Positions 1,571 through 45,974 of a DNA stretch of 64,000 nucleotides are shown one piece after another. Each line of letters starts with the position of its first letter. Position 1 is the stretch's first letter. A program made the translations under genes and the position numbers. Where the stretch lies: the NCBI GenBank assembly GCA_025200525.1, contig CM045762.1, forward strand, positions 30,646,196-30,710,195, read 5' to 3'. Source of the stretch: Camellia lanceoleosa. Lineage: Eukaryota > Streptophyta > Magnoliopsida > Ericales > Theaceae. The notes below the pieces were generated by a model, which was given only the letters and a program-made list of their open reading frames with translations, was not told the origin of the DNA and ran no database searches.

Positions 1571-3767
1571 ATGGCTAGACGTAGAAGACAAGGAGAAAAT
1601 GAACGCTTGGAAGAAGGCGTGGAATGAGAGGTAGAGATACCTAATCCAGAGGACAATGTGATAACACGTTCTGTGGAAACTCCTATTTTATCAGAACCTA
1701 TGGTCAAACAGACTAGTACTTCAGAACAAGTACCATATACTCATGATATTGGACGAGACCAAGGAATTGGACCATCCACTGTTCCATCTACTCAGCCAAT
1801 AAATCCATGGGGTGGCTTAGTAGATGCTATGGGACAGCAATTAATGAATACAATGGAAAGGTGGGCAATATCCTTTTTGGATCGAATGAATAACCACCAA
1901 CCAACAAGTGCAAGACACATCGAGGAAATTTCAAATGTCCCTCAGCAAAGATTGGCTAGAGATAAACAGCCTATGCAAGTTAATGGACATTCTAATGGTC
2001 AAACTAGTAATCAAAACTATGAAAGACCATCACCTCAGTCTTGGTACGAACCTATTCTGAGGCCTATACCAGGTCAAAATGCCTCAATACTTAATAGTGA
2101 AGCCATGTAATTTAGCGGATCTGGCCCAGTACAAGAAAATGGCATAAGAATGGTTCTAAATCCTATGTTCGAAGCCATACCTGGCACAAGGGGGTTCACT
2201 AATCCCTTATTCGAATTTATACCGGGGGGGGGGTTTGGAAGGTTTTCCTACAAATGGAAAAGATACAACACCAGTTCCAGCACCTTTCGTAGGTTCTTTC
2301 GCAGGACAGGCTCAAAGGGGTTACCCACATCCCCAACAGCAACCTGTACCACATGGACAACCAATCCCAAATGTACCACCTTATGGACCAAGAGGACCAC
2401 AGGCATAAGTTTGCCCACCAAATCCTGTGTTTGCCCCTCCAGTAGTGGTTCAGCAGGCACAAAATATGGTCCCTAGGGACCAAATTGCTGACATTGTTAG
2501 AGAGATATATGGACCAATGGCTTGGGGGGTCCAAACTCCAGCGTACAAGAAACCGTATCCAGAATGGGTAGACATGGTACATGAATACCCAAGAGGCTTC
2601 AGGATACCAGACTTTGCCCTTTTTTATGGGAATGGAAACCAATCAACAGTAGAGCATATTGCTAGGTTTGTTGCTCAATGCGGCGAATTTACTAATAATG
2701 ATTATATGAAGTTAAGGTTATTCCCAAATTCCCTAACTGGGGGAGCATTTATATGGTATATTAACCTTACACCTGGCTCTATCCAGACTTGGCAACAAAT
2801 GGAAGAGGCATTTCATGCCCAATTCTTCCAATCAGAGCCAGAGGTTTCCATGGTAGATTTGGCAAGATTAAGTCAAAGGCCTGATGAGAAGGCTACTCAG
2901 TTCATTACCAGATTTAAAAGGGCTCGAAATAAATGTAGAGTCATCTTACCAGAGCCAGAATTCGTGAGATTGGCTCAAAATGGTCTAGAGTTTAGGCTTC
3001 GAAAGAAGTTTGACTCGACTGAGTTCAGAGACTTAGTAGAACTCACCTATAAGGTGTCTAGATACGAAGCATTGTTAGAAGAAGAACAAGATCGAAATAA
3101 TACATCGTATAAGACATATTATAGAGATCCTAATTATGAGATCGATGCAGCAGAGATTGTGGGGAAAGAACCTGTAATTTGTGAAGCATTAATTCATAAA
3201 GATACAACAATTGACCAACAGTTTAAAAAGAAAGACCTTCATAGGAAATACTCTTGCGATTTGACTAAGGCAAATGACATTTTTGATCATTTGCTTGCAG
3301 CCAACTTCCTTAAGTTACCAAAAGGAGTCAAAATTCTATCTCCTGATGAACTAAAAGGAAAAGTATATTGTAAATGGTATAATTCTTGGTCTCACTCGAC
3401 TGAGAACTGTATTGTTTTTCGAGACAAGATCCAAGAACAAATTCGGAAGGGAAGTTTGAAATTCCCAGCCAAAGCAGAAAAGGCCATGGGAATCGACAGT
3501 AATCCATTTCTAGAAATTGAGGAGGTAACCAATGTCATTGTGCTAGACCTTCAGAACCTGTCTTTGAAAGAATTGGAAGAAGTCAATGTGCAGATGCATG
3601 TGGCCAACCAAACAGCTACCAAGAGAGGCACTGGAAATCTACCTGCTATTGGACAAGATTTCTCACACCAGGGGGAAGATTCTGATAAGGAAACACTGGA
3701 TGACGATTCCTTAGAAGCAGCTGTAATGCAAAGGATGTGTCCCAGGTGCAGACTAAGTTACAAGTGA
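1571..3767 (+). pseudogene. gag: gag of the Tat element (capsid/nucleocapsid), broken
   Basis: Encodes the structural protein of the retrotransposon particle. The start is the first ATG after the primer site (1571, reading MARRRRQGENERLEEG). The N-terminal third is polar and proline/glutamine-rich. The conserved retrotransposon gag domain (PF03732 type) lies at about 2570-3080, with blocks YPRGFRIPDFALFYGNG and LTGGAFIWY. Breaks: in-frame stops near 1625, 2108 and 2407, plus a frameshift at a run of G near 2223-2232, after which the frame matches the gag domain and the downstream protease. No zinc knuckle is obvious, though a C-x2-C-x4-H-x4-C-like remnant could be hidden near 3370. It ends at a stop near 3765; the same frame continues to the protease with further stops. 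Confidence 0.9.
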
Positions 3768-4886
3768 TTGAAGGGGCTTCCAATTGATGGGAAGTAGTAC
3801 TACAAGGATGTGCAAAGACGTCATAAACCAACCAATGCTTACAATAAGAGGGCATATCCATCTGGTGTTAGGCAGCAACCATTGATGGTTGAACTAACGG
3901 CCGATAGAATGCGTTTTAAAGGCAAGAGGCCTTTGTATGAATCCAGATCACCTAATTATTACAAGATGGAGAGCAGTCATTCTGAAAGGAGACTGGAGAA
4001 GGGTTCAGTTTATGGAATCGAAGCCAGGGATTAGCCCCATAGATCAATTTCACGCAGGACAGAAAGTGGACACCTTCATCGGAGGCCTGAATTAGGCCTA
4101 AAACATGAAGTTAGGGCCAAGCAGTGGCCTTCACAGATAGCTTCAAAGGTAGCTTCGAAGGAGGAAAGAAGCAGTTCAACAGTTGGGTCAGTGAGTTCGT
4201 GGGTACCTGGGGTCCCAGATTGGTTTGTGATGCAAAACAAGCCTAGGGAAGTGTTTACTCAAAGAGAGGTAATTGGAAACCAAGGCAGGATGGTCAAACC
4301 TCCTTTGGTGGCTCCCAACAATTGGGTGTTGCTTAAGCACCCAAAAACAAAGGAACCAGACATGGTCCCTGTAATTTCTAGATCACAAAGGAGGAAAATT
4401 CAACGCAGGTATACTCAGTACCAGCAAGACTTGAAAGAGAGTGGAGAGAGCTCTTCATTAGTCTAGACAAAAGGAAAGAAGAATCCAAAGTCAGACTACA
4501 TTCCAAAACCAACTCCACAAAGCAAAATGGGTTGTAGTAAAGAACAGTTGGCCGAAGTTCATTCTGAACTAAAAGCCAGAGAGAAATCCAGTGTAGTAGG
4601 ATTGGAGAAGGCATTGATGGAAAGTGATAGCGAGGTAGAGAAAGAAGTTGGCTTAGGCCAAAAGAAAGAAATGGTTGAAGAAGAAATGTTCGAAGCCTTT
4701 ATGGTCGAACAAACTTTTTTGGTTGAAAAGCCAGTCGGAAAAGACCATTTGAAAGAATCTGTTAGGAATGAAGTGCCAGAATACAGTATGGAGGATGCTT
4801 CTGAAGTGGCTGAACAAGGTGGCCAAGAGGAGAAGCAAACATAACCAGCCATCCAATTTGGCTCGTTTCCTCCAGTATCAGTAAAT
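3768..4886 (+). pseudogene. gag-protease linker region, decayed
   Basis: Same reading frame as gag and protease, open at 3810-4034, 4191-4466 and 4527-4844 and separated by single stops. The product would be basic at first (many K/R), then strongly acidic and rich in glutamate (about 4527-4844). I recognise no domain. Linkers of this kind are usual in Tat-lineage polyproteins, and the shared frame suggests it was once continuous with gag. Confidence 0.6.
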
Positions 4887-5687
4887 ATGGTACACATACT
4901 ACCGCATGAATTCCAAGCTGGAGATGAGAACCAAGAAGGGCAAGAAGTGGACCCAATTCCAGTCTCCCGTGAAGACTCACAAGTGAGTATGGTGCAGGAT
5001 GATTTCGGAATGGCTACTCCAATGGAGACTGAATATGAGAGTGAAGAAGAAGTAAGCATTAACATTTCGTATCCTTTTGAGTATCCCTCAAACTCTATGA
5101 CACAGCATGTCAAGCCTTTGTATATCAATGCTTTCTTTGATGGGATACAATTAAACCGAGTCTTGATAGATAATGGGGCAGCGGTAAACTTACTACCGAA
5201 ATCTTCCTTGAAGAAACTAGGGAAAAGGAATCCTAGGTTAATCCTAACCAGCACAACCATTGCTGGTTTCACTGAAGACAAGCAGATGGCTTAGGAAATT
5301 CTACCCATTAACCTGAGTGTGGGAACCAGAGATTGTATGACAGCATTCTTCGTCATCGACAGCAATGCTAAGTACAATGCTTTACTTGGTAGAGATTGGA
5401 TCCACACTAACAAATGTGTGCTTTCCTCTTTGCATCAAAAAATAATGATGGCCTTGGGCAATGGGGAGACAGAGAAAATTGATGCAGATCCTCAACCTTT
5501 CATAGCCTGTGCAGACTTTGCAGAGGCCAAACTGTATATTGAGGAAGTGACACCACTTAGTATACTAAGGAAACTTGATGGCTCAGCCGAAGTAACAGCT
5601 GATGAGGAAGTGACACACCTGAAGCACTTTGTTCAGAAGAGTGCTGATGAGGAGGTTATCGTTAAGGATGACAATGATGCCTGATTG
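4887..5687 (+). pseudogene. Aspartic protease of the Tat element
   Basis: Retropepsin-like protease that would cut the polyprotein. The active-site region reads VLIDNGAAVNLLP near 5160-5200. The usual D-[TS]-G-A or D-G-G-S motif appears here as D-N-G-A; the catalytic aspartate and glycine are kept. The second landmark, ALLGRDWI, is near 5380-5400. One stop (about 5292, TAG where a CAG is likely) splits the domain. It shares the frame of gag. The frame changes after 5684, before RT. Confidence 0.85.
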
Positions 5688-6133
5688 TAGGCAAAGAAAT
5701 AAAGTCCAAGAAGCCAAGTCTTTGGCTCTAATTAAGTTCTCAGTATTGGATGTAAAGTCAATAGTCCAGAGAGTACAAGAGCAAGGGAAAGAAGCCATGA
5801 TGATTGGCTACAAGCAGGAGCAGAAACAGGCCAGAGTTTTGGTCCTTGACAAATATTGTGCATTGGACATTGAAACAAAAGTCCAGGAGATACAGGAGGA
5901 AGAGGCCTTATGGACAGATTTTTTTTTATGAGGAGGAGGGTAAGGATGTTGAATTAAAGAACCTGGGAACAGAACAAAGTAAGAAAATTGCTTCGAAGTC
6001 AGAGGGGATCAAAGAAGAAGCTTCAGTAAGTTATCAGATTCTAGACCCCTTAGAAAAAGTAAATTTAGGGGAAGGTTCTATACAATAGCCCACCTATGTA
6101 AGTGTTTGTTTGAATGCTCTGGACAGGGACTAG
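5688..6133 (+). other. Protease-RT junction of the Tat element
   Basis: No conserved domain. Frames here are interrupted: gag and protease use one frame, and everything from about 5804 to the end of integrase uses another. Ogre-type Tat elements are known to splice out an intron between protease and RT. This junction could be a remnant of that, or simple decay. A run of T at about 5921-5928 is a possible slippage site. Confidence 0.45.
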
Positions 6134-8077
6134 TTGTTAGTTGTTTTGAAGAAGTATAAAGATTGCTTTGCATGGCCTTATAATGAACTACCAGGATTGG
6201 AAAGATCACTAGTAGAACATAGGCTCCCTATGAGGCCTAATTTCAAGCCATACAAGCAAAAGCCAAGAAGAATGAGTCCAGAAGTGATTCAGAAAGTTAA
6301 GGAAGAAATTCTTAGACTACTCAAGGCAGGCTTTATTAAGACAGCCAGGTATGTTGAGTGGCTATCCAATATTGTGCCTATGGTAAAAAAGAATGGTAAA
6401 ATGAGAGTATGCATTGATTTCAGAAACTTGAATCTAGCAACTCTAAAAGATGAGTATCCTATGCCTATAGTAGACTTGTTGGTAGACAGTTTAGCAGGAC
6501 ATCGAATTTTATCAATGATGGATGGGCACTCTGGTTATAACCAAATCTGCATTGCAGAGAAGGATGTTCACAAGACCGCATTCAGATGTCCTGGGAATAT
6601 TGGGACCTTCGAATGGGTTAAAATGCCGTTTGGCCTAAAGAATGCTGGGGCTACATATCAGAGGGCTATGAACACTATCTTTCATGACCTCATTGGAGGG
6701 TATTTAGAGTGTTATATCGATGACATTGTAGTTAAATCCCAATCCATGGAGGAGCATCTGTTTCACTTAGAAGCAGCCTTTGAAAGAATGAGAAAGTTCA
6801 AATTGAAGCTCAATCCTCTTAAGTGTGCTTTTGGCGTACCATCTGGAAACTTCTTGGGCTATGTGGTATACAAGAAAGGAATACAGATTGACCAGAATAA
6901 AGCCAAAGCCATCATTGAAGCCAGACCTCCATCAAGTAAGAAAGAATTCCAAAAGTTCCTTGGACAGGTTAATTTTCTTCGAAGATTCATTTCTAACACT
7001 GTAGGGAAAACTAAAGTTTTTTCTTCCTTATTAAGGCTGAAAGATGAAGAGGAATTTGTGTGGACAACAGAGCATCAAATTGCTTTCGAAGGTATCAAAG
7101 CCTACTTGGCCAACCCTCCAGTGCTGATGCCACCAAAGGGTGACAAGCCCTTGAAGTTGTACATAGCTGCAGCAGAAGATTCATTGGGAGCTTTCTTAGC
7201 CCAAGACAATGAAAAAGGCAAGGAGCAAGATGTTTATTACCTTAGTAGGTTTTTAAATTCTTCTGAATGTAAATATTCATCTGTAGAAAAGCTGTGCCTT
7301 GTATTGTATTTTGCTGCAATGAAATTAAGATACTATCTTTTACCTACAACTGTCTTGGTAATTGTAATCACAGATTTGGTTTAGTATATGTTATCTAGAC
7401 CTATGTTGAGGGGAAGAATTGGCAAATAGATATTAGCCTTATCAGAATTTCATTTAGAATATGTTCCCCAATGGGCAGTGAAAGGAGAAGTTTTAGCCAA
7501 TTTTTTGGCAGATCATCCATCTCAAACAGAAAGCCAAGAGATAATGGAACTCGATATGGCTAGTGTTAAGCCATGGCAAATGTGGTTCGATGGATCGAAA
7601 GCCAATGGTCTAACTGGAATTGGTGTAGTGATTAAGTCACCATAAGGAATAGAAACCACACATTGTTTCAGAGTGGATGAAAGTACTTGTTCTAACAATC
7701 AAGCTGAATATGAGGCCTTAATAGTGGGATTGGAAATTCTGATTGGATTACAAGTTCATATAGTTGACATATTTGGAGATTCTCAATTGGTGGTTAACCA
7801 AGTGAAAGGAATTTTCAAATGTCAGAGTATAAGCATGTTGCCATACTATGTTGTTGCATTACATCTGCTTTCTCAATTTCAAATAGCAAATGTAACTTAT
7901 GTCCTAAGATTCTTGAATAATAGAGCTAATGATGTGGCTCAGAAAGCTTCGAATTTCAAGATGAGGGATAATACTCAAAGGGACATAAACCAAGCAACAT
8001 ACCAGAAATCTATACCACCTTTAAGTAAAAGGAATGTGGTCCTAGAAGTCAATCACAATGATTTACAGGAACAAGAT
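6134..8077 (+). pseudogene. pol: Reverse transcriptase, RNase H and second RNase H of the Tat element
   Basis: Copies the element RNA into DNA. The RT fingers/palm is intact over 6134-7381: RVCIDFRNLN, the MDGHSGYNQI block and the catalytic YIDDIVV at about 6712-6732. The RT-linked Ty3-type RNase H follows (KLYIAAAEDSLGAFLAQ, about 7150-7380) and is cut by stops at about 7382 and 7426. A second RNase H of the type acquired by Tat elements begins at about 7582 (MWFDGSKANG), with AEYEALIVGLE and GDSQLVVNQ carrying the acidic residues. A stop near 7644 interrupts it. All pieces are in one frame, so the decay here is nonsense substitution rather than indels. Confidence 0.92.
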
Positions 8078-8089
8078 TAGAGGCATCCA

Positions 8090-9328
8090 ATAATGCAGTA
8101 CTTGGCTGGTCCATCCTCGAAGGCCAGCAGGAAAATTAAATTGTAATTCATGCAATACATCATATACAGCAATGCTCTCTACAAAGGGGGGGAGTGGGGA
8201 AATGGTTTATTGTTGGAATGTTTGGGCCCAAAAGAAGCATTAACAGCTATGGCTGAGGTTCATGAAGGCATCTGTGGTGCTCACCAACCTGGTGTGAAAA
8301 TGAGATGGTTGCTTCGAAGGCATTCCTACTATTGGCCAACTATCCTTAAAGATTGCATAGAGTATGCAAAAGGTTGCCAGGCATGTCAAAAGCATGGCAC
8401 AATAAGGCATGTGCCCATAACTGACCTGCATGCAGTGGTAAAACCTTGGCCATTCAGAGGATGGGCCATGGATATGATGGGGAAAATACACCCACCCTCT
8501 TCGAAGCATCATTGTTTCATTTTATTAGCCACTGATTATTTCACTAAGTGGGTCGAAGCTAAGCCATACAAGGCAGTAGACCAGACTGAGGTCATTGGGT
8601 TTCCATAGATTTGGCATCCCACAAACTATATTGATAATGAGACTATGTTTGATGGGAAAATAGTGAAGTCCTTTGTGGCAGAGTTTGGAATTAGCCTTAT
8701 TGATTCTACCTCCTATTATGCACAAGCTAATGGTCAAGCTGAATCATCCAATAAGTCCTTAAAGAAAGGAATATAAAAGGTCGTGGAAGACAATTCTAGG
8801 GATTGGCATAACTTATTATTGGATGTATTGTGGGCTTATAGAACTTCCCCAAGGTCAAGCACAGGAGTTACTCCTTATGCCTTGGTGTATGGGCATGATG
8901 CAGTGTTACCTGTGGAAATTAATGTTAAATCATTGAGGGTCAGATGCCAAGACCAGCTAAATCCTAAGCAATACCATCAGAGTATGTGCTTGGAATTAGA
9001 AAGCATAAATGAAATCAGAATTCTGGCATTAAATAGTATTCTCTTTTAAAAGAAGAAAGCAGCCAAAAATTACAATAAGAAAGTCAAATACATTGGCTTT
9101 GATAAAGGTGATTTGGTGTGGAAGACAATACTCCCAATAGGAATTAAAATCCATAAGTTTGGTAAATGGTCTCCTAATTGGGAAGGACCATATCAAATTC
9201 ATAGAGTCCTGCCTTTTGGGGCATACCATTTGAGAAATTTGAATGGATACATACATCCCAAAAAAATCAATGGCAGATATTTGAAGCTTTATTTCCCAAC
9301 CATTTGGGAAACACAAGGAGTAGAATAA
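8090..9328 (+). pseudogene. pol: Integrase of the Tat element, broken
   Basis: Inserts the cDNA into the genome. The zinc-binding HHCC region is at about 8262-8395 (HEGICGAH ... CQACQ). The catalytic core has the first acid in WAMDMMG (about 8465), the second in DNETMF (about 8633) and the glutamate in GQAESSNKS (about 8735-8755). The C-terminal part has GDLVWK and the GPYQIHRVL block (about 9185-9210). Stops near 8606, 8774 and 9046 break it. The frame is the same as RT. It ends 78 bp before the stop of the convergent antisense gene at 9406. Confidence 0.9.
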
Positions 9329-30123: not shown

Positions 30124-33100
30124 GGTGGTAAATCTCATAATAAATGGATTAATCCAAATAAGAACCAAGGTTTACCATCTCCACAAAATTTTACATGTTT
30201 TGTCTGTGACAAAAGTGGGCATATTGCTCGAACTTGCAAATTTCGAAAACGTGCACCTATTCCAAAGGCTAATTTTATCAAGGAGCCATTTGTGGCGATG
30301 ATTATAGACATTTGCATGGTTAATTATGCAGATGGTTGATGGGCAGATTCTAGTGCTAATAGACATGTTTGTTATGATAAAGTTTGGTTCAAGGTGTATA
30401 CTCCCTTTGATGATGAGAAAACAATTATGCTTGGTGACTCTAGTCAAACCAAGATACTTGAGAGTGGTGAGGTTGACTTTAAGTTCACCTCTGGACGTGT
30501 GCTTACTTTAAAAGATATGTTTTATACACCGCCCATGAAGAAGAATTTAATGTCAAGTTATTTGTTGAATAAGGTTGACTTTAAGCAAACTATGAAATTT
30601 GATCAATATGTGATTATTAAGAAGGGTATTTCTGGGGTAAGGGTTATGCTAGTGATAGGATATTCAAACTAAATGTTGAGATTAATAAACCATCTACCAA
30701 TTCGGTTTATATGTTATTTTCTATGAATTTTGGCATGCTCGCTTGTGTCATATTAACAGTAAATATGTGGGAATCATGAGTAGTTTAGGATTAATTTCTA
30801 AATTGACAAAATTTTTTGAAAAATGTGAAGTTTGTAGTAAAGCAAAAATTACTAAGAGACCTCATAAAAGTGTTGAGAAAAATACCGAATTGCTAAAATT
30901 ATTTCATACTGATTTGTGTGAGTTTGAAGGAATTTTAACTCGTGATGGTAACTAATTTTTTTATTACTTTTATTGATGATTTTTCAAAATATACAAACGT
31001 ATATTTATTAAAAAACAAAAGTGATGCTTTTGAGAAATTTAAAGAATTCCTTTTTGAAGTGGAAAATCAATTCGGTAAAAAAAATTAAGAGAATTAGAAG
31101 TGATAGAGGCCGGGAATATGAATCTCTTGGATTCAATTCTTTTGTTCAATCATTAGGAATTATTCGTAAGACTACTCCACCACATTTACCTTCATATAAT
31201 GGTGTAGCTAAAAGAAAAAATAGAATGTTAATTGACTTAACGAATGCTATGCTTATTGATTCAGGTGCTCCTTCAAATCTTTAGGGCGAGGCTATTTTGA
31301 CAGCTTGCCATGTAATAAATAGAATACCACACAAAAAGACTAAAATTATACCTTATGAGTTGTGGCGGGGGTATAAACCAAATCTAATTTATTTGAGGGT
31401 TTGGGACTGTTTAGCTTTTGTGAGGCTTGCAGATCTTAAACGACCTAAATTAGGTAAACGAGCTACCACTTGTACTTCTCTAGGGTATGCGTTATATAGT
31501 ACAACTTATAGATTTTTTGATATGAAAAATAGTATTATTTTTGAATCAGGTGATGCTATTTTTCATTAAATAAATTTCCTTTCAAATCTAGAAATAGTGG
31601 GGGTCAAATATTTTTTGAAAATATTTTATCCATGCCTAGTTTTTTTTACTCTATCTCAAGTTTTTCAAGAACAAGAAAATTCTCAAATCCAACCAAGGAG
31701 GAGTAAACGAGCTAGAGTTGAAAATGATTTTAGCCTTGACTATTATCTTTACAATGTAGAAGAAATTCCTTTTTCGATGCAAGAAACTTTATTATCATCT
31801 GATGCTATTTTCTGGAGAGAGGCTGTGAATAATGAGATAGATTCACTACTTTCAAATAAAACATGGAAGCTAGTGGATTTACCTCAAGGTTATAAAGTTA
31901 TTTGGTGTAAATGGGTCCTCCGTAAAAAATTTAAACTTGATGGAACTATAGATAAATATAAAGCGAGGCTTGTTGCTAAAGGTTTTAAGCAATAAGTTGA
32001 TCTTGATTTCTTTGACACTTTTTCTTCGGTTATTAGAGTTACATTCCTTAGATTGTTGATAGCAGTGACAACAATTCATGATTTAAAAATTCATCAAATG
32101 GATGTGAAAACAGTATTTTCAAATGGAGGTCTAAATGAGGAGATTTACATGGACCAACCCAAGGGCTTTGTGGAGCCTGGCCAAGAAAGCAAGTTGTATA
32201 AGCTAACTAAGTCCCTTTATGGTTTAAAACAAACTCCTAAACCGTGGAATGAGAAATTTAATTCATGTATGCTTGAGAATGGCTATAAAACTAATAAATG
32301 TGATAAGTGCATATATTATAAAACTTGTGAGAATGCACATGTGATTATTAGCCTATATGTGGATGATCTACTTATCTTTGACTCTAATTTGTATATTATA
32401 AATGAGACTAAAAATATGCTTAATAGCTACTTTGATATGAAAGATCTTGGTGAAGCCAATTTTATTTTGGGAATTAAAATTACCAAGACTAATGATAGCA
32501 TTTTTTTTTTATTAGTCGCATTACGTTGAGAAAATTTTAAAGAAATATAATTTTCTAGACTGTAAACACATTGCTACTCCTTTTGATGCAAGCATATATT
32601 TATTTGCTGTAGCAAATGAAAAAGATGTGATTAATCAAAAGGAATATGCTAGCATGATTGGTAGTTTGAGATATGCTACTGACTGTACTAGACTTGACAT
32701 TGCATATGTTGTTGGAGTACTTAGCAAGTTTACTAACAAGCCAAGTCGAGATCATTGGCTAGCCATGGGAAGAATTATGAGATATTTATCTGGTACAAAA
32801 AATTATGGTTTGTTTTATAATAAGTATCCTGTGGTACTTGAGGGATATAGTGATGCCGATTGGAACACTTTGTCATGTGATTCTTTTTCTACCTCGGGTT
32901 TTATTTTTACCTTGGGTGGTGGTGCTATATGTTGGAAGTTTAAAAAATAGACTATAATTGCTAATTCTACAATGGAAGTTGAGCTTATAGCATTAGCTTC
33001 AACATGTGAGAAAGCAAATTGGTTGAAAGATTTGTTACACGAAATCCCTTTTTGGGAAAAACCAATTCCTCATATGTTAATTTGTTGTGATAACATTGCT

Positions 33101-36886: not shown

Positions 36887-37842
36887 GAAAATGAGATATC
36901 CGTATATTAAATTAATCTATTTATATTTTATTTTCTTTATATTATTTATTAATAAAATATAATTCTTATGATATTTTTTTTAATATAAACCAAAATGAAT
37001 TCTTGAGAAGGCGTTAGGATCCTCTAGAGTGATCCATCTAGAGTGATCTCCTAGAGTGAATGAGATAGATCCGACACGTGTCCCGCTAATGGAATGAAAG
37101 GTTGAGATTAATCCTCACCAAAACGACGTCGTTTTGGTGGAGGAAATTATAAAAAAAAAAAAAAAAAAAAAGAAAGAAAGAAGAAAAAACGTGAACAAAA
37201 TGAGAAAGAAGCTTCAAACTGTATCATCATCATGGATTTTGATCTGTGAGATCTAGATAAAAAAGAAGATTAAATCAGTTCGATAATAAGATTGATTTAG
37301 ATATGCATCATCATCATCATCAAAAGATTAAAAAAAAGAGGCTTCAAACTATATTATTATCATGGATTTTGATATGTGAAATCTAAATAAATAAAAAAGA
37401 AGATTAAATCGATTCAATAATAAAATTGATTCAGATATGTATCATCATCATCATCATCAAAAGATTGAAGAAAACCCGTGAACAAAATGAGAAAGAGGCT
37501 TCCAAAGATTAAATCGATTTGTCGATAATAAGTAGGGGTGGGTGCGGATCGGTTGCGGCCACGAAACCTCCAATCCGCCATCTGTCTGCCAAATTGGCAG
37601 ATTGGAAAAAATCAATCAGCATCCGTCTGCCAATCCGGCGGATGCAGATTTGGCGAATTGACGGATTGACGGATGGATGCGAATCGGTTTGGCGGTTTGA
37701 AATTTTATAAATTTTTGACATACAAAAAAAAAATATATATATATCTAATCTCAAATTTCAATAAAAAAATTTCAAAATTCACATCATAGATTATGTGTAC
37801 AGAGTTTTTGTTGGAAAGATAATGAGGGAATGCTGCACTAAC

Positions 37843-39309
37843 CTATTGCCCAAAGTAGAGTGCAATTTAATGATGATTTCTTCTTCTTCAGAAGATATGT
37901 TGCCTTTCTTTAAGTCAGATCTCAAGTAGTTAATCCATCTTAGTTTGCAGCTTTTCCCACACCTAAGTAACCCTTCAAAACCATAAATAAAAAATATAAG
38001 ACATACCAAATCTATTGTATTGCTTAGCTATTGCACTGCTGTTGTGACATACCAAATCTAAATTGTATTGCATTTTTTTTATAGCACAGAATATGTAAGA
38101 CAGAGTATACAAACAAATTACAATAAGGTTAAGCACACATAGGCTCAACCATCCATCAGAGACATTGAAGATCAAATGATTTTCATATGTCATATGCAAT
38201 TTTCTCATATGCCATCATATGCAATTTTCTCATCAGAGTAATCTTCTTATCTTTTTATTGTTATTTCTAAAACCATAAAATATTTATTAAGCATATATCA
38301 AGCAACGTTAAGGAGACTTGAACTCAAAACATGTTGCTTCAAAAGTCTCACAGGTAAGCCATACGAGTCAGGATCCTCTAGAGTGATTTTTCGTAAAGTG
38401 ATTGCAAAGTAATAAGATTAGGTTTTGAGAGTTGAAAGGTCAAATAATTAGATATCCTCAATTTTGTCAAAATTAATTCTCCGTCATTTAAAAAATTACT
38501 CTAAAAACACTTTACGAAAAATCACTGTAGACAATCATGATTCAAGCTATACCCCTTTGAGCCAAATGATCTCATACTTAATCACACATGAAACTCAACT
38601 AAAACCACAAAGAATTTCACTAAGATTCTGAAAAAGACTTAAAATAAAGAATGAGACTTAAAAACAATTTCTAATCACAACTTTATTGGATATTTTTTAA
38701 TAAGTAATATATAATTACTAAAATTAAAAAAAAAATATATATATATAATAGGAAAAAAAAAAGAAGAAGAAAAAAACCATCGTTGCAACAACGTAATTGG
38801 AGAGAATTGACAAACGTTCACAGTAGTGGATTGACCTTATTATCTACCATGAATTGAGCCTAAAGAATCCACCAACAAAATTTGGTAGCTTTCCTTATCT
38901 AAAAAATAATTTTAAAAAATAAAAATAAAAAATTGTTAACTTAATTTATTGCAAGATTCATAATTTGGTCAAAACCTACAAAGTGATGTTTGGCCAAAGC
39001 CAAACAAAGAAAGAAAAAGTTCCCAAAATCAAATCATAATGAGATACGAAATATTTGTCAATCTATTTCTTTCTATTGAAAACTTATATTGATAAGACAA
39101 AGACGAAAAGCAACCCTCTCAACTTACATATATAAGTTTGATACAGTGAAATGTAAAGAAGAGTAGAAAATCTCACCAGCATTCTTGGGCATAGACCTCC
39201 AAGAACATTCCCCATTAGCTTGAATGTACTTGGTCAAGATCTCATCTTCTTTTGCAGTCCATCTCTCCCTTTTCAACCCCACTTTCTCACAGCAAGGTGC
39301 TCTTTCCAT
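37843..39309 (-). pseudogene. R2R3-MYB gene fragment, exons 1-2 only (subgroup-7-like)
   Basis: Exon 1 is 39177-39309 (133 bp, start ATG at 39309, [17 protein letters not shown]), ending in GCTG|gtgag. The intron is 37973-39176 (1204 bp). Exon 2 is 37843-37972 (130 bp), with acceptor gaag|GG and donor ATAG|gttag. These exon lengths and phases are the standard ones for plant R2R3-MYB genes. The frame is fully open, covering repeat R2 and the first part of R3 ([14 protein letters not shown], then GNISSEEEE). The N-terminus and PKNAG junction resemble flavonol-regulating subgroup 7 (MYB11/12/111). Exon 3, with the last R3 helix and activation region, is absent: only about 310 bp remain before the transposon end. 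G-E-C-S-W replaces the usual G-E-G-S-W. So this is a captured fragment, not a working factor, though it could be transcribed. Confidence 0.85.
38370..38545. mobile_element. MITE inside the captured MYB intron
   Basis: Terminal inverted repeats of about 33 bp: left aggatcctctagagtg then atttttcgtaaagtg, right its inverse ending ctgtagacaatcatg. The left end shares aggatcctctagagtga with the border at 37016. Confidence 0.7.
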
Positions 39310-39408
39310 TTTAGTCTAAAAAAAACACACACTTGATCACCCAACTCACTCAAGGTCTGTACTCCACTTCTCAGATAAATGGTAGAAGAGAGAGAAAAAT
39401 GTAGTAGA

Positions 39409-39410
<2 letters not shown>

Positions 39411-39450
<40 letters not shown>
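39411..39450. repeat. (GA)n microsatellite
   Basis: About 20 GA units in the region upstream of the captured MYB exon 1; on the MYB strand it reads (CT)n, as often seen in plant 5' leaders. Confidence 0.9.
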
Positions 39451-39452
<2 letters not shown>

Positions 39453-39551
39453 CCTCAGTGGAGTAGATCGATCGTCGTTCAGTGCAAGCAAATCATCGAT
39501 CAGAAGTGTAGATCGTCGGCCGGAGGTTACCGTCGGACGGTAGGGTATGGT

Positions 39552-39599
<48 letters not shown>
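39552..39599. repeat. Second (GA)n microsatellite
   Basis: About 23 GA units with one interruption, 100 bp from the first tract, also within the hAT-like element. Confidence 0.9.
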
Positions 39600-39601
<2 letters not shown>

Positions 39602-40559
39602 TCAGCGTGTTGGTCTGTGAAGGAATTATGGCCAATTCTAAACAAAAGGGGACTGATGCATGTATAAATTTGGGGGGAAAAACGAAGGAAAAAAGAAAGG
39701 CATGGACGGGTTGGGTTTGCGGAGTAAAATGGCGGATCACCCGCCACCCGACCCAAACCCAAAAAACTTAAAATAGTCGGCCCGCACTCGTCTGCTAAGT
39801 ACCATGCATCTATCCATTTGTCGTCGCGTCGGGTCGGGTCGGGTGGTTATGGCGAGTTAGGTCATCCGCTGCACAACCCTAATAATAAGATTGATTCAGA
39901 TTTGTATCATCATCATCATCATCAAAAGATTGATCCAGATATGTATTTCTATATGCATATATGTATATTTACAGACCCTGCGAAGAAGATTAAATTGATT
40001 CGATAATAAAATTGATTCAGATCTTTATCAACATCATCATCAAAAGATTGATTCAGATATGTATTTCTATATGCATATATGTATATTTACAGACCCCATA
40101 GTGCAAGCACCAAAGATTGATTCAAATCTGTATCATTGTCATCGCCATCATCAAAATCAAAATGAGCAACAAAATCAGCAGATCCGATCAATGGACATGG
40201 AGATCGGCGAAGGAGATCGGTGACAGAAGATCTTCCATGGCTGACTTGAACAAGGGTTGTTCATCATCATCATCAAGAACAAGAACCACTTACTATTCAC
40301 TTGAATCAAAAGATTTCTAAAATGAAGTAGAGTCTTAACTCAAAATCAAAGCTCTGTCCCTTCTCTTGATTTGGTCCCTTCTCTCTCTCTCTCTAACTCT
40401 TCCATGAACTAGTGAAAGACAACTCAGAAAGTTAATTTCTATTTTTTTTTTATTTTTTAAAATTACTAACCAAAATAATGTCGTTTTGATTAATTTTATT
40501 TTGAACCGTTGAATCACTCATTTCAAGGATCATTTCAGGAAATCCCGATCCTGATCCTT

Positions 40560-42899
40560 GAGAAGAGGAGGTGTGGGGACTCTTCATTAAAAAGAAGTGT
40601 CCTAGTAGATGTCTAATCAGATCCATTTTGGTTGACTAAAAGCATCATTGCAAAATCTTTTCTTGATTCTAAACTCACAGATGAAATTAATGACAAGTAT
40701 CTAAACATGGTCCAATAATTTATTCACTGAAGGTAAGAGGGGGCCATCTTGTATTATTCATCCCTTTGAGCAAGATTAAAAATATTAAAATTAATAGAAT
40801 TAGTATGAAAATATAAAGATAAATAAAAAAAACAAATATACATTTTACTGTAAAATATATAATACTAATTTTTTATTCATATAATTTACAAATTATTGAT
40901 AAAAAATAGGTCAAGTGTTGTGGGTATTAAAATATAAAGATAGCTCAATGTAATTATATTAAAATTATAATTTTTTTTATATTTTTTAAAATTTCAAGGA
41001 GGTTTGTGTAATTTACATTTAAAAAAAAATAATAATAATAGTAAGATGCATGGTAAGATTTGATTTGAACTTATATATCATCATTCACTAAAAGAATAAG
41101 TCATTCACTAATTTCATAAAACTTCTAATCTTACAAACAAATTTCACTTCAGAAAACACAATCTTAAAGTTTTGTCATTGACCAGATAACATTTTGTTGT
41201 ATTCATTAAAAGATTTCACAAAACATTGGAATGTGAATGACCATTCCTGTATCATTTGATTTTACATTAATTCCAATCTTATCTTGATTTCTGTTCCCTC
41301 TTATTGTTAAAAATTTAGCCTAACAATGAGATGACTAGAGAAAATTATGAAAAATCCTAGAAAAATTGATTTTTCTTCTTGGTAGAAACACTTAGGACTT
41401 AAACAGAAGCTTATGAATGAGAAACGTTAAGGATCACAAATTGCTGCTGTGTTCCATACACATTCTTTTGTGCCCAAAATAAAATAACAAAATGTTCTCA
41501 TTACATCAATTGAGACAGATTTTATTTATTTTTAAAGAAAGCAACTAGGAATAGTAAGTATCTTTTTCCTTCATTTGATCGAGTTGGGTTCAATATTTGA
41601 AAAAAATACAATATGTTACATAATTTTTATATAATTACACCAATTTTGCTAAATAGACCGAAATTAATACAAATAATGTGACACACAAAAATAAACAAGA
41701 AAAAAAATATATATTTTAGTGTAAAAAAAAAATCACATTAGTTTTTTCATTCATATATGACTAACAAATTATTGATAAAAAAAACTTAAATATTATATAA
41801 ATTAAAATCTTAATATTTAATGTAATTATGTTAAAATTGTGATTTACTATATTATTTTTAAATATATTGCCTTAATGATTCTGAGAAGAGAAAAAAAAAA
41901 TTGTAAGGGGAAGAAAGAAACTTCTGGAGAACTTTATTTACTAAAAAAAAATAGTATTTCATTGGGAGAGTACTAAGAATTGTTGGATAAGTTTCAAATA
42001 AGAACAAAAAAGTGTTGATTTCATTCAACAGTATGCCTAATTAAATTACAGCCACACAGAAAAATACACATAAAGTAAGAATTTTAAAAGGTTGGCCGAT
42101 GATAAAAATTCAAAATCTCAAGTTTAAATTTGTCAATTGGCCATTGAAAGTTTGGACCCCAGAAGACTAAGCTGGGCAGGAGATACATGAATTAAAAAAA
42201 ATACAGTAACACATGAGATAATAAACAAAGATAGTAAAGGTTCATTATTACTAATAGTTGGAGAGATTGGTATAATTAATTTAAAAAAAATATATGATCA
42301 TTATATTCTTATTGCTAAAATATCATAATGAGTTGATGCAAAGAAGCATATGGAATGAAAGGAAAACCAAAAAAAAAAAAAAAAAATTAATAAAATCAAA
42401 GGACACCATAGAAATGAGAAATATTTCTCTCAATTTTGTTACTCTAACAGTAACTAAATAGTTCCAACGGCTTACAATTAAATTTATAACAAATAATGCT
42501 TAATCATCATGCTTCAAATCAAGTCAAAATTACATAATATAATTTTTTTCCCTCCAAAAATAGAAAAATTAGTTAGGCTCAAATTTAGAGTCTTAAAAAA
42601 AATGTTTTTATTTATACCCCAAAATTAAGCATTTGATATCTTTTCAAATATAGTAAAAAAATTTAATTCAAAGGCTAAAATAGAATTCATCCAAAATTAA
42701 GCACAAATCACCATGTTGTCGAACTTGTTAAACTGTTTTGAACCGAATATGCTTGTTTTGGGTCTAATCCAACAGCCTTGAAAAATCAAAAGCAGTGAAA
42801 TTATAATTTTATTATCAAATGGTTAAACTACTCGATAAACTTGATATCAATCACCACTGTATCATGGAGCCACTTGTTTTTGCTCCCATTTGCATTTTT
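40560..42899. other. AT-rich intergenic DNA with a dispersed duplicate
   Basis: No gene seen. About 40790-41035 and 41660-41885 are two diverged copies of one sequence (shared order: ttactgtaaaatat-like, tcattcatat, acaaattattgataaaaaa, aatgtaattat-ttaaaatt). Several A/T homopolymer runs, one at 42369-42386. Confidence 0.6.
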
Positions 42900-43012: not shown

Positions 43013-45309
43013 TATCTTCCCTTAATATAAAATTGGGTAATAAATTACACACGATGTACACATTACATGATGCATGCATTCAAGTGGAATTGACATGTAG
43101 CTTGAATTTAGGAAACAAGGTGCAAGGGCAAATATGGTATTTACCTATAGATTTCAATGTAACTTGCAAAAAGTGAGGGAAGGATAAAGGAAACCAGATG
43201 GGCAACAACAAAAACATCACTAACAGCAGTACAATGGGATCTTAATTAGTATCATTAAGCATTATCACCAATACTGTTGGTGATGGTAATGACAGTGGTG
43301 AAAATTGATATTCTCACAGCATTATTCTTCAAACAAACGATCAAGTTTGAATCGTAATGTGACATGTGGCGGCAATTAAGTCCTTAATTTTTTGTTTTGA
43401 TTATGTGGGTTCTTTTAATTGGGGGGGATTTAGAACCTTTCATGTCTTCATTTGTGAAGTTACATGCTCATCCCACCTTATAGTATACCAAAATCTTTGA
43501 TAGTCAACCAGATCTTAAGAATATGATACATGTCCAGGTGAGAAAAAAAAAAAAAAAAAAAAAAAAATTTCAAATGTTGGTTTTTTTCTTCTTTCACAAG
43601 TGCACATCATATGCATCTTATGCAAAAATAATTTCTTTCACAAAATGTATAATTTTTGTCACAAAAAATATAATTTTTTTTCTTCAAAAAAAATGTAATT
43701 TTTACTTCTCTCAAAATGTATAACTTCTCTAAAAAAAGGTATAACTTTAGTTATACATGATTTTTAAGTGCACATTATAATTTCAAAATTTATAATTTTC
43801 ATCACAAAAATCATAATTTTTATCTAACAAAATGTATAACTTCTCACACAAAAAGTATAACTTTTACATTATAACCTCTCCCAAATATATTTAAGTAAAA
43901 TGATTTACAAACATAAAATTTGTACAAAATTTTATACCAAAATAATGTAGTAATGCCATTGTTGTATAAAATTCACATTGATGGACCTTTATTACATTTT
44001 TGAAATGATAAGATCCATCACATCATTCCATATAAAAAATGTAGAGGCTAGATTCAAGAAGCAAGAATAAAATTATCTGAAAAATTACTCAAAAAAATAT
44101 GTCTATAGACTACGTTTATTTTGTATATCCTACATCATATTAATTTTGAATCTATACTATACAATTTATTTTTGGAACGTATAAATTTTTTGAATAGATA
44201 CCATTTTCTTTATATAAAGTCTGTTTGTAACTTTATTTTATTTTTTTTTTGGATCGGCAAAGAAAAATTTCATTTAACAGTAAGAAATTAAAAGTACAGG
44301 AAGATGAAAGCATCGAGAGAGATTCGGAAGTATAAAAATACCCCTACTACTGTTACTCGCAATCATACAACCAACCCTTAAACCTCTTGATTTAAAAAAA
44401 AAAAAAAAAAAAAGTTAAGAAGAACCATTACATTTCCCGCATTTAACAATACCATTACATTGTCATCACCTTATTTATAGCATTATGTTCATCTTATTTA
44501 TGCATGTCCGCTGCTCCTACTGAAAAGAAAGAGAGACCATGAACTTGAAGTTTTGTTTTAAGTTGTATTTGGATCATGGATTAGATATGATTTTTTTCCC
44601 CCCTCCAAATCTCTACCTAATTTCAGTAGAGGCTTGTAAAACACACAATACCTTCCAAATAGTTTTTTTGTTTTTTTTGTTTTTTGATTTTTTTTTTTTT
44701 TTTTTTTGCATGGCATGACTCTACATTTTCATATAAGTTTAAAATCAGTCAAAAAAAATAAAAAAATCAGTCATTTTCTAAATAATTTTAATTCTGTTGA
44801 TCTAGTAAAAACAACAATTTCCTCCTAATAAAGAACCTCTATTAAAGGCTAGTGGCTACAAGTAGTCATCCTTCTTTATTTTTTTTTTTTAATATATAAA
44901 ATCCAATAAAAAATTTAAAGGAGACAAGTTTGTTCATCACCCTAAGCATTATGAAGATGCTAAAATCTTTTTACGTTCATCTCCCTTTTTAATTTACTAT
45001 TTTTTAACTGCACTGTCAAACGCGCCCTAACTCAAAGCTACTTGCACCAGCAACCTAGTCACTAGCTAGGTCCCAAATCATAGTGCTAAATTTGCTAATA
45101 TGCTGGATAATGATTGCTTTGATGATGATAACATACTTATAAATATTTGGGAAAAAAATAAACTGTACAATTAATGCTAATAGTACAATTAATGGATCAA
45201 GATAATTTGATGGATCAAGAAAAAAAAAATTAAAAAAAAAGAGCTAAAGCACTTTCGTTGGTCCCATATTATGTGTCCTCACTTCTGACTAGTCCCATGA
45301 TGTGATCTC
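43013..45309. other. Intergenic region upstream of the ALOG gene
   Basis: Contains long A runs (43541-43567, 44395-44413), a degenerate ~22-bp repeat zone with recurring aaaatgtataa (43600-43880), and T-rich stretches. No gene or RNA gene seen. Distal promoter elements of the ALOG gene may lie here, but nothing specific stands out. Confidence 0.5.
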
Positions 45310-45357
45310 CATCTTTCTCCTCTCCAATAATATCTTTCATCCCTCTCCTCCGAAAAA
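45310..45357 (+). promoter_or_regulatory. Pyrimidine patch upstream of the ALOG gene
   Basis: Pyrimidine-rich run (ctttctcctctccaataata then tttcatccctctcctcc) 60-100 bp before the start codon. Y-patches near the transcription start are common in plant core promoters. No convincing TATA box nearby. Confidence 0.4.
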
Positions 45358-45413
45358 ATAGAAATAAAAAAAAGACGAGAAATTCCAGAAGAACTCATTT
45401 GCATCGATCATCG

Positions 45414-45974
45414 ATGTCAGGTGAGAAAGGAAGAGGATCAGGAGAAGGATCATCGCGATCTGCTGCTGCACTTGTTGATGATGAAAATAATCAGCGTCGG
45501 CAGGTGCAGCAACCGGCTCAATTGAGCCGATACGAGTCACAAAAAAGGCGAGACTGGAACACCTTTGGGCAGTACTTGAAGAATCAAAGGCCTCCGGTAC
45601 CCATGTCTCACTGCAACTACAACCACATACTCGATTTCCTTCGCTACCTCGATCAGTTTGGGAAGACTAAAGTGCACTTACAAGGGTGTGTGTACTTTGG
45701 GCAGCCCGAGCCACCGGGTCCTTGCGCTTGCCCACTTAGGCAAGCTTGGGGAAGCCTTGATGCCCTAATCGGTAGGCTTAGAGCTGCCTATGAAGAGAAT
45801 GGTGGCTTACCGGAGTCTAATCCTTTTGCAAGTGGAGCTATACGCATTTACTTGCGCGAGGTGAGGGATTCTCAAGCAAAGGCTCGGGGAATCCCTTACA
45901 AGAAAAAGAAGAAGAAGAAGATTCAAATGAACGCCTATGATGACGCCTCAAACCCTCAGATGCAGTTATCTTGA
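45414..45974 (+). CDS. LSH10-like: ALOG-domain nuclear protein, LSH10-like
   Basis: Single-exon gene for 186 residues, the only intact host gene in the window. ALOG (DUF640, Arabidopsis LSH1 / rice G1) proteins are small plant nuclear regulators of organ boundaries, meristem and light-dependent growth; this copy's exact role is not shown. Start: ATG at 45414 (MSGEKGRG); an in-frame TTG at 45399 is not a credible start. Residues 1-36 are polar and poorly conserved. The ALOG domain is about 37-162 ([18 protein letters not shown] ... [11 protein letters not shown]). The zinc-ribbon insert keeps H88, C92, C104 and C106. Residues 163-169 are seven lysines, the family nuclear-localisation signal. 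No stop, shift or missing key residue. The short N-terminus, and the [11 protein letters not shown] end, are closest to LSH10 among those I know. No introns, as is typical of this family. Confidence 0.96.

Follow-up and report, generated by a model that had tools for sequence, protein, structure and literature searches.

Pack-MULEs are DNA transposons with terminal inverted repeats (TIRs) that have captured host sequence, and MULEs generate target-site duplications of 9-11 bp. The element described here, located in a 64-kb stretch of Camellia lanceoleosa DNA (contig CM045762.1; hereafter the window), resembles them in having captured host sequence, namely exons of a MYB gene, but differs in carrying hAT ends and 8-bp duplications instead of MULE ends. 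Besides Pack-MULEs, which an excerpt of PMC8277862 names, Pack-hAT or Pack-TYPE elements have been described in maize and rice (PMC8903248, excerpt). In maize, the hAT elements Ds2-22 and Ds-l4-354 contain intron-containing gene fragments copied from another chromosome, and Ds-l4-354 holds a fragment of ZmMybst1, which is MYB-type by name; the excerpted text treats gene capture by hAT elements as rare and their uptake of DNA on excision as unexplained (PMC3260210).

With a probability of roughly 0.93, the element in the window is a Pack-hAT that contains part of the genomic sequence of a flavonol MYB gene of subgroup 7, located on contig C11. Its donor and 5' junction have been located, the finished chimera has transposed repeatedly, and the copies are decaying with no detectable constraint on the protein. 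With the Pack-hAT/Pack-TYPE elements (PMC8903248) it shares non-autonomous hAT ends, duplications of 8 nt, the capture of coding DNA, clusters of several copies and internal rearrangement, and a hAT with an intron-bearing gene fragment recalls Ds2-22 and Ds-l4-354. Unlike the two maize Ds cases, the chimera has increased to six copies or more, and its donor is a subgroup-7 R2R3-MYB gene. Unlike the Pack-hATs of maize and rice, it occurs in Camellia, where the donor, MYB-free relatives, sister elements, the multiplied product, a relative with transposase and a junction within a shared microsatellite are found together in one genome. A literature search found no description of this tea case among the titles and starts of abstracts listed. 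The process is known but uncommon, and it is unusually completely resolved here.

The element is a non-autonomous hAT of 2349 bp (37533-39881) with MYB exons 1 and 2 inside it on the minus strand. It is bracketed by an exact 8-bp target-site duplication, ATAATAAG, at 37525-37532 and 39882-39889, and the first-pass annotation, made from the window sequence, had placed it correctly to the base. The TIRs read TAGGGGTGGG and TAGGGTTGTG. Those of the other copies are similar, with one end starting CAGGG in L003 and one altered left end in L006; hAT TIRs are of the T/CAGGG type. The 30-bp ends of the window element score 18, and 500 null draws gave a 95% value of 16 and reached 24 at most. This is close to chance, and the TIRs were rejected as stand-alone proof of an element. 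They are weak alone, and the case rests on the target duplications and the element family. The left end (element positions 1-201; 37533-37733, plus strand) is 85-94% identical to MYB-free relatives and to a transposase-bearing relative, and the right end (element positions 1902-2349; 39434-39881, plus strand) is 77% identical to L023, 79% to L024 and about 68% to L029 and L030. Since both segments occur without the captured span in these four elements, they are the hAT ends. Membership in the hAT superfamily is thus indicated by the 8-bp duplication, the terminal repeats and a related element with hAT transposase, and the Pack-hAT assignment by the lack of transposase, the gene DNA with a donor elsewhere and mobility after capture. 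The sole stop-to-stop open reading frame (ORF) of at least 150 amino acids in the element overlaps the 5' untranslated region (5'UTR) and exon 1, and an Rfam scan of the window gave no match at gathering scores.

The hAT sits in an older multicopy host repeat (37002-40565) whose inverted ends are imperfect and whose edges carry CTTGAGAAG as a direct repeat of 9 bp (37002-37010 and 40557-40565). When the flanks of the hAT are joined, they form one repeat unit with a single ATAATAAG, in line with the earlier observation that the flanking repeat reads through once the element is removed. Among 40 candidate paralogues of the host repeat that were scored, five were fetched, and all five run across the insertion point without the hAT. 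The single ATAATAAG predicted for an empty site is visible in the printed alignments of the four forward-oriented paralogues, while the reverse-oriented L043 was judged by its BLAST span only. The host repeat itself contains CAT-rich tandem units and has many relatives (71-87% identity over most of its right part), some of them apparently tandem (L040, L044).

The captured exons have the structure that had been claimed for them. Exon 1 (39177-39309, minus strand, 133 nt, ATG at 39309) ends at a GTGAGA splice donor, and exon 2 (37843-37972, minus strand, 130 nt) is preceded by an AG acceptor and followed by GTTAGT. The reading frame is open, and translation passes from exon 2 into the first ~106 bp of the donor's intron 2 (37736-37842, minus strand), where a stop at 37793-37791 ends a 104-residue ORF. 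The 88 exon-encoded residues match Pfam Myb_DNA-binding, and residues 13-88 match the structure of WER (6kks) over R2 and the first half of R3. Both matches end half-way through R3 and exon 3 is missing, so the complete R2 and R3 of a functional R2R3-MYB are not present. A scan with R3/exon-3 motif patterns found no exon 3 on either strand of the window, as the first-pass annotation had stated. Among the 120 matches listed of 2591, the closest full-length protein is from Camellia fascicularis (91%). In a panel of the 118 usable homologues from these 120, the window copy deviates at residues 2, 15, 35, 54 and 67, each of which is conserved in 116-118 of the 118.

A genome search with P0001 (106 of 663 candidates scored) gave an exon-3 match at a single locus, which lies on C11 (96%). 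This donor gene is intact, with three exons (3436-3568, 3683-3812 and 7207-8113 of L017, C11:9003001-9012500), GT-AG splice sites and 389 encoded amino acids; intron 1 measures 114 bp and intron 2 3.4 kb. Exon 3 contains GRTSRSAMK, and the subgroup 7 motif is given as GRTxRSxMK (PMC11017525, excerpt). Hence, the donor is a flavonol subgroup 7 R2R3-MYB, which bears out the subgroup assignment of the first-pass annotation. The donor may correspond to the published CsMYB12 (TEA009412) or to the weakly expressed homologue TEA016401 (PMC8087823, excerpt). At residue 47 of R2 the donor has proline, unlike all six captured copies, which have leucine; the homologues have leucine (114 of 118), lysine (3) or proline (1).

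The window element is homologous to the donor over L017 3326-3622 (94%) and 3653-3918 (97%), and beyond these blocks only a few short low-complexity hits were found. The kept donor span of 593 bp comprises 110 bp of 5'UTR, exon 1, intron 1 minus 30 bp, exon 2 and 106 bp of intron 2. It begins in a CT-rich stretch 110 bp before the ATG, and the donor 5'UTR corresponds to 39310-39427 of the window (element positions 1778-1895, minus strand). Of the upstream DNA said to have been captured, the element therefore holds the 5'UTR and not the donor promoter. The hAT ends found no match in the 9.5 kb fetched around the C11 donor. The refutations foreseen in the first-pass annotation thus failed: exon 3 was not found within the window, and the full gene lies on another contig.

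The element belongs to a family that was compared within the source genome. Because 40 of 3581 candidates were scored in the search for the chimera, more copies may exist than are given here. Group A, the chimera as found in the window, comprises at least six near-full copies on several chromosomes (L001, which is the window copy, to L006), with pairwise identities of 95.5-96.9%, gaps excluded. Five of the six have exact 8-bp duplications (ATAATAAG, GTTGGACT, GAGAGAAC, GTATGCAT and CACGACCC), and L006 matches at 6 of 8 positions. The search for the parental gene and further copies proposed in the first-pass annotation has thus yielded the donor and at least five more chimeras. At least six further elements hold smaller MYB pieces. 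Group B (L025, at the same place as L008, and L022) retains exon 1 without exon 2, with donor sequence to 3629, about 11 bp, and then donor 3891-4056; both duplications are exact (8/8), and the right terminus of L022 is diverged. Group C retains donor 3326-3500 and 3889-4021 in L019, L020 and L021, each with an 8/8 duplication, and in L018, whose left end lies outside the stretch fetched for it. Relatives without the captured span also have duplications, 8/8 in L023, L029 and L030 and 7/8 in L024. Fillers of about 790 bp in group B and of about 190 and 740 bp in group C match only within their own group among the loci fetched.

A relative on C9 (L032:455-5264, 4810 bp, exact 8/8 duplication GTTAGGAG) encodes zf-BED, hAT-like RNase-H (PF14372) and Dimer_Tnp_hAT (PF05699) domains in two ORFs. 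Its ends are 93.5% identical to those of the window element over 201 bp on the left and 74% over 196 bp on the right, and L032 or a closer relative is likely the transposase source. The earlier claim that the MYB arrived with the hAT is therefore upheld by the donor on C11, the six loci with different duplications, the MYB-free relatives, the empty sites and this transposase-bearing relative.

On its 5'UTR side, the captured DNA joins the hAT within a (GA)n tract (39412-39450). The MYB-free elements L023 and L029 have a GA tract at the same place, reading CTTCTATCTAGAGAGAGAG... followed by GATACCT.AGTG, and in the donor a CT tract marks the edge of the segment homologous to the element. The GA tract at this position in MYB-free relatives suggests a microhomology switch, and the intron sequence in the element indicates capture from genomic DNA. 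Groups B and C continue into donor intron 2 (to 4056 and 4021, respectively) and then into DNA that matches nothing else fetched. Since these sister elements include more of intron 2, a longer stretch was probably captured at first, and the left junction of group A probably reflects a deletion at a later time. We envisage a single capture during gap repair following excision of the element, in which a template switch between the (GA)n and (CT)n tracts of hAT and donor would have created the 5' junction. The filler in intron 1 may have entered after capture, and the chimera may have spread by transposase supplied in trans. At present it is likely a decaying passenger which, if transcribed, could give rise to a 104-residue read-through product with R2 and half of R3, or to small RNAs matching donor exons 1 and 2.

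What had been taken for the gene's intron 1 (39176-37973, 1204 nt) has intact splice borders, while most of its length is a ~1.12-kb filler (38003-39124; element positions 471-1592) that replaces 30 bp of the donor intron. The donor's own intron was rejected as its origin, because donor intron 1 measures only 114 bp. The filler lies between the 5' part of that intron with its GT donor (39125-39176, minus strand) and the 3' part with its AG acceptor (37973-38002, minus strand). It is present in all six chimera copies and not in the donor, and it measures 1105-1150 bp in the five copies in which both edges were located by exact search. Within it lies a MITE-like (miniature inverted-repeat transposable element) inverted repeat (38365-38543) with many dispersed relatives of about 170 bp. 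A common transposon as filler is not supported, as only seven full-length places were found among the 40 of 68 candidates that were scored, and six of them are the elements. The seventh, on C1 (L026 4221-5398, 83%), lies 1.3 kb past the end of a family-8 glycosyltransferase ORF. No hAT ends were found in the 9 kb fetched around it, and its edges showed neither an inverted repeat nor a usable duplication. As a direct source of the filler this segment is doubtful, since 83% is far below the 94-97% identity of the element to the MYB donor. The divergence between filler and C1 segment is at odds with the age of the MYB capture.

Several observations weigh against a Pack-hAT formed by one capture from C11. 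The primary left junction was not found among the loci fetched, and the copy counts are lower bounds. Group B does not have a TTT insertion that groups A and C share. The trees of the element ends (14 and 16 rows) are poorly resolved: group A forms one side of a branch with support of 93/92 in the right-end tree and only 40/79 in the left-end tree, and the right-end tree mixes MYB-free with MYB-bearing elements, placing L023 and L024 with groups A and B and L029 with group C. The exact transposase source is not proved, because the right end of L032 is only 74% identical and its frame is split. Finally, the power of the selection test described below is low, since it comprises only 21 changes. 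The mean Kimura two-parameter distance among the six A copies over intron 1 (0.026) corresponds to about 2 million years at a substitution rate of 6.5e-9, a date that is unsafe because of deamination and woody-plant rates.

Besides being a passenger, the family might act in trans as a source of small RNAs, with small interfering RNAs from methylated copies lowering the donor transcript or methylating its first exons. Donor 21-mers recur exactly in at least one A copy at 113 of 113 positions in exon 1 and 103 of 110 in exon 2. Moreover, C>T or G>A changes make up 110 of the 172 singletons (36 of the 110 in CpG), an excess as expected of methylated DNA. The window copy by itself matches only 52 of 113 exon-1 and 52 of 110 exon-2 21-mers, and the argument consists of sequence matches. 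Donor and copies share 0 of 977 24-mers and 2 of 980 21-mers in the 1-kb promoter, and 0 of 884 24-mers and 0 of 887 21-mers in exon 3; in the 110-bp donor 5'UTR, 21 of 91 21-mers are found in some A copy. Hence, direct promoter silencing is unlikely, and any effect would act on the transcript or gene body, because the matches lie in exons 1 and 2 and hardly in the promoter. The passage of PMC13317346 adduced for such an effect does not mention hAT elements. Overall, we consider small-RNA production with an effect on the donor improbable. That the family would serve as a trans-acting, copy-number-variable dimmer of flavonol synthesis among tea cultivars via exon-directed small RNAs is a conjecture with lower odds again. 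The case offers a direct way to test whether a flavonol regulator is influenced by such copies.

Repeated, independent capture of the same gene, instead of one event, would account for the different donor pieces in the three groups, for the TTT insertion present in A and C and not in B, and for end trees that do not unite the MYB-bearing elements. However, the 12 aligned elements share their 5' boundary. By BLAST against the whole donor stretch, it lies at donor 3326 in eight of them (window copy, L006, L018-L022 and L025; 3327 in L022), and the remaining four align with the window copy over their full length. All 12 also share three base changes relative to the donor, one of them C to G, and a 3-bp insertion (GAG; AAG in L005), making a single source likely. 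All six A copies are set apart from the donor by five base changes in about 560 aligned bases. The remaining differences between groups can be explained by later deletions and fillers, and we therefore regard repeated capture as unlikely.

The first-pass annotation also raised the possibility of a truncated MYB. On this account, the copies would express R2 and half of R3, and selection would maintain this peptide as a competitor or for binding partners. The ORF and the intron-1 splice sites are intact in the window copy and in L002, a short isoform of the maize Myb-related protein P appears in the homologue listing (P0149), and two Camellia sinensis MYB111-like models, P0121 (102 amino acids) and P0122 (104 amino acids), have the same intron-2 read-through tail. 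The donor's own read-through, read by hand, would yield this tail as well, so P0121 and P0122 may each be a copy or a partial model of the donor. P0122 is identical to none of the six copies, and its changes at residues 45, 52 and 64, present in 0, 0 and 1 of the 118 homologues, suggest that it is a copy. Some short tea MYB111-like gene models may thus be transposon passengers. A third such model, P0123 (146 amino acids), has MYB exons 1 and 2 between other N- and C-terminal residues and could be a captured copy fused to host exons. Since exon 3 encodes the R3 recognition helix, the 104-residue product should not bind DNA alone.

The coding singletons of group A comprise 14 replacement, 2 stop and 5 silent changes. 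The test leaves out two further changes, each of which occurs in two copies (residue 20; silent, codon 53). The 16 replacement and stop changes against 5 silent ones compare with a neutral expectation of 71% replacement and stop (p = 0.81; ratio 1.28, in a small sample), and the total of 21 compares with 22.0 expected from the element-wide rate. Stops are present in L005 and L006, and the intron 1 acceptor has changed from AG to AA in L003 and L004. Together with the neutral coding changes, these lesions give no sign of protein maintenance within this small sample. The five deviations of the window copy at conserved residues argue in the same direction, and a maintained truncated MYB is very unlikely. 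The near-chance score of the terminal repeats is all that speaks for an ordinary MYB gene or pseudogene whose hAT-like ends arose by chance. This reading is already refuted by the exact duplications at five of the loci, the empty site in all five paralogues fetched and the donor elsewhere.

Outside the element and its host repeat, an ALOG (LSH10-like) ORF at 45306-45974, 5.4 kb from the element, is 98% identical to Camellia sinensis proteins and 82% to the best Camellia fascicularis protein listed. Pieces of retrotransposon gag, reverse transcriptase and integrase lie at 2409-8608, and an RVT_2 (Copia-type) piece lies at 31996-32529.

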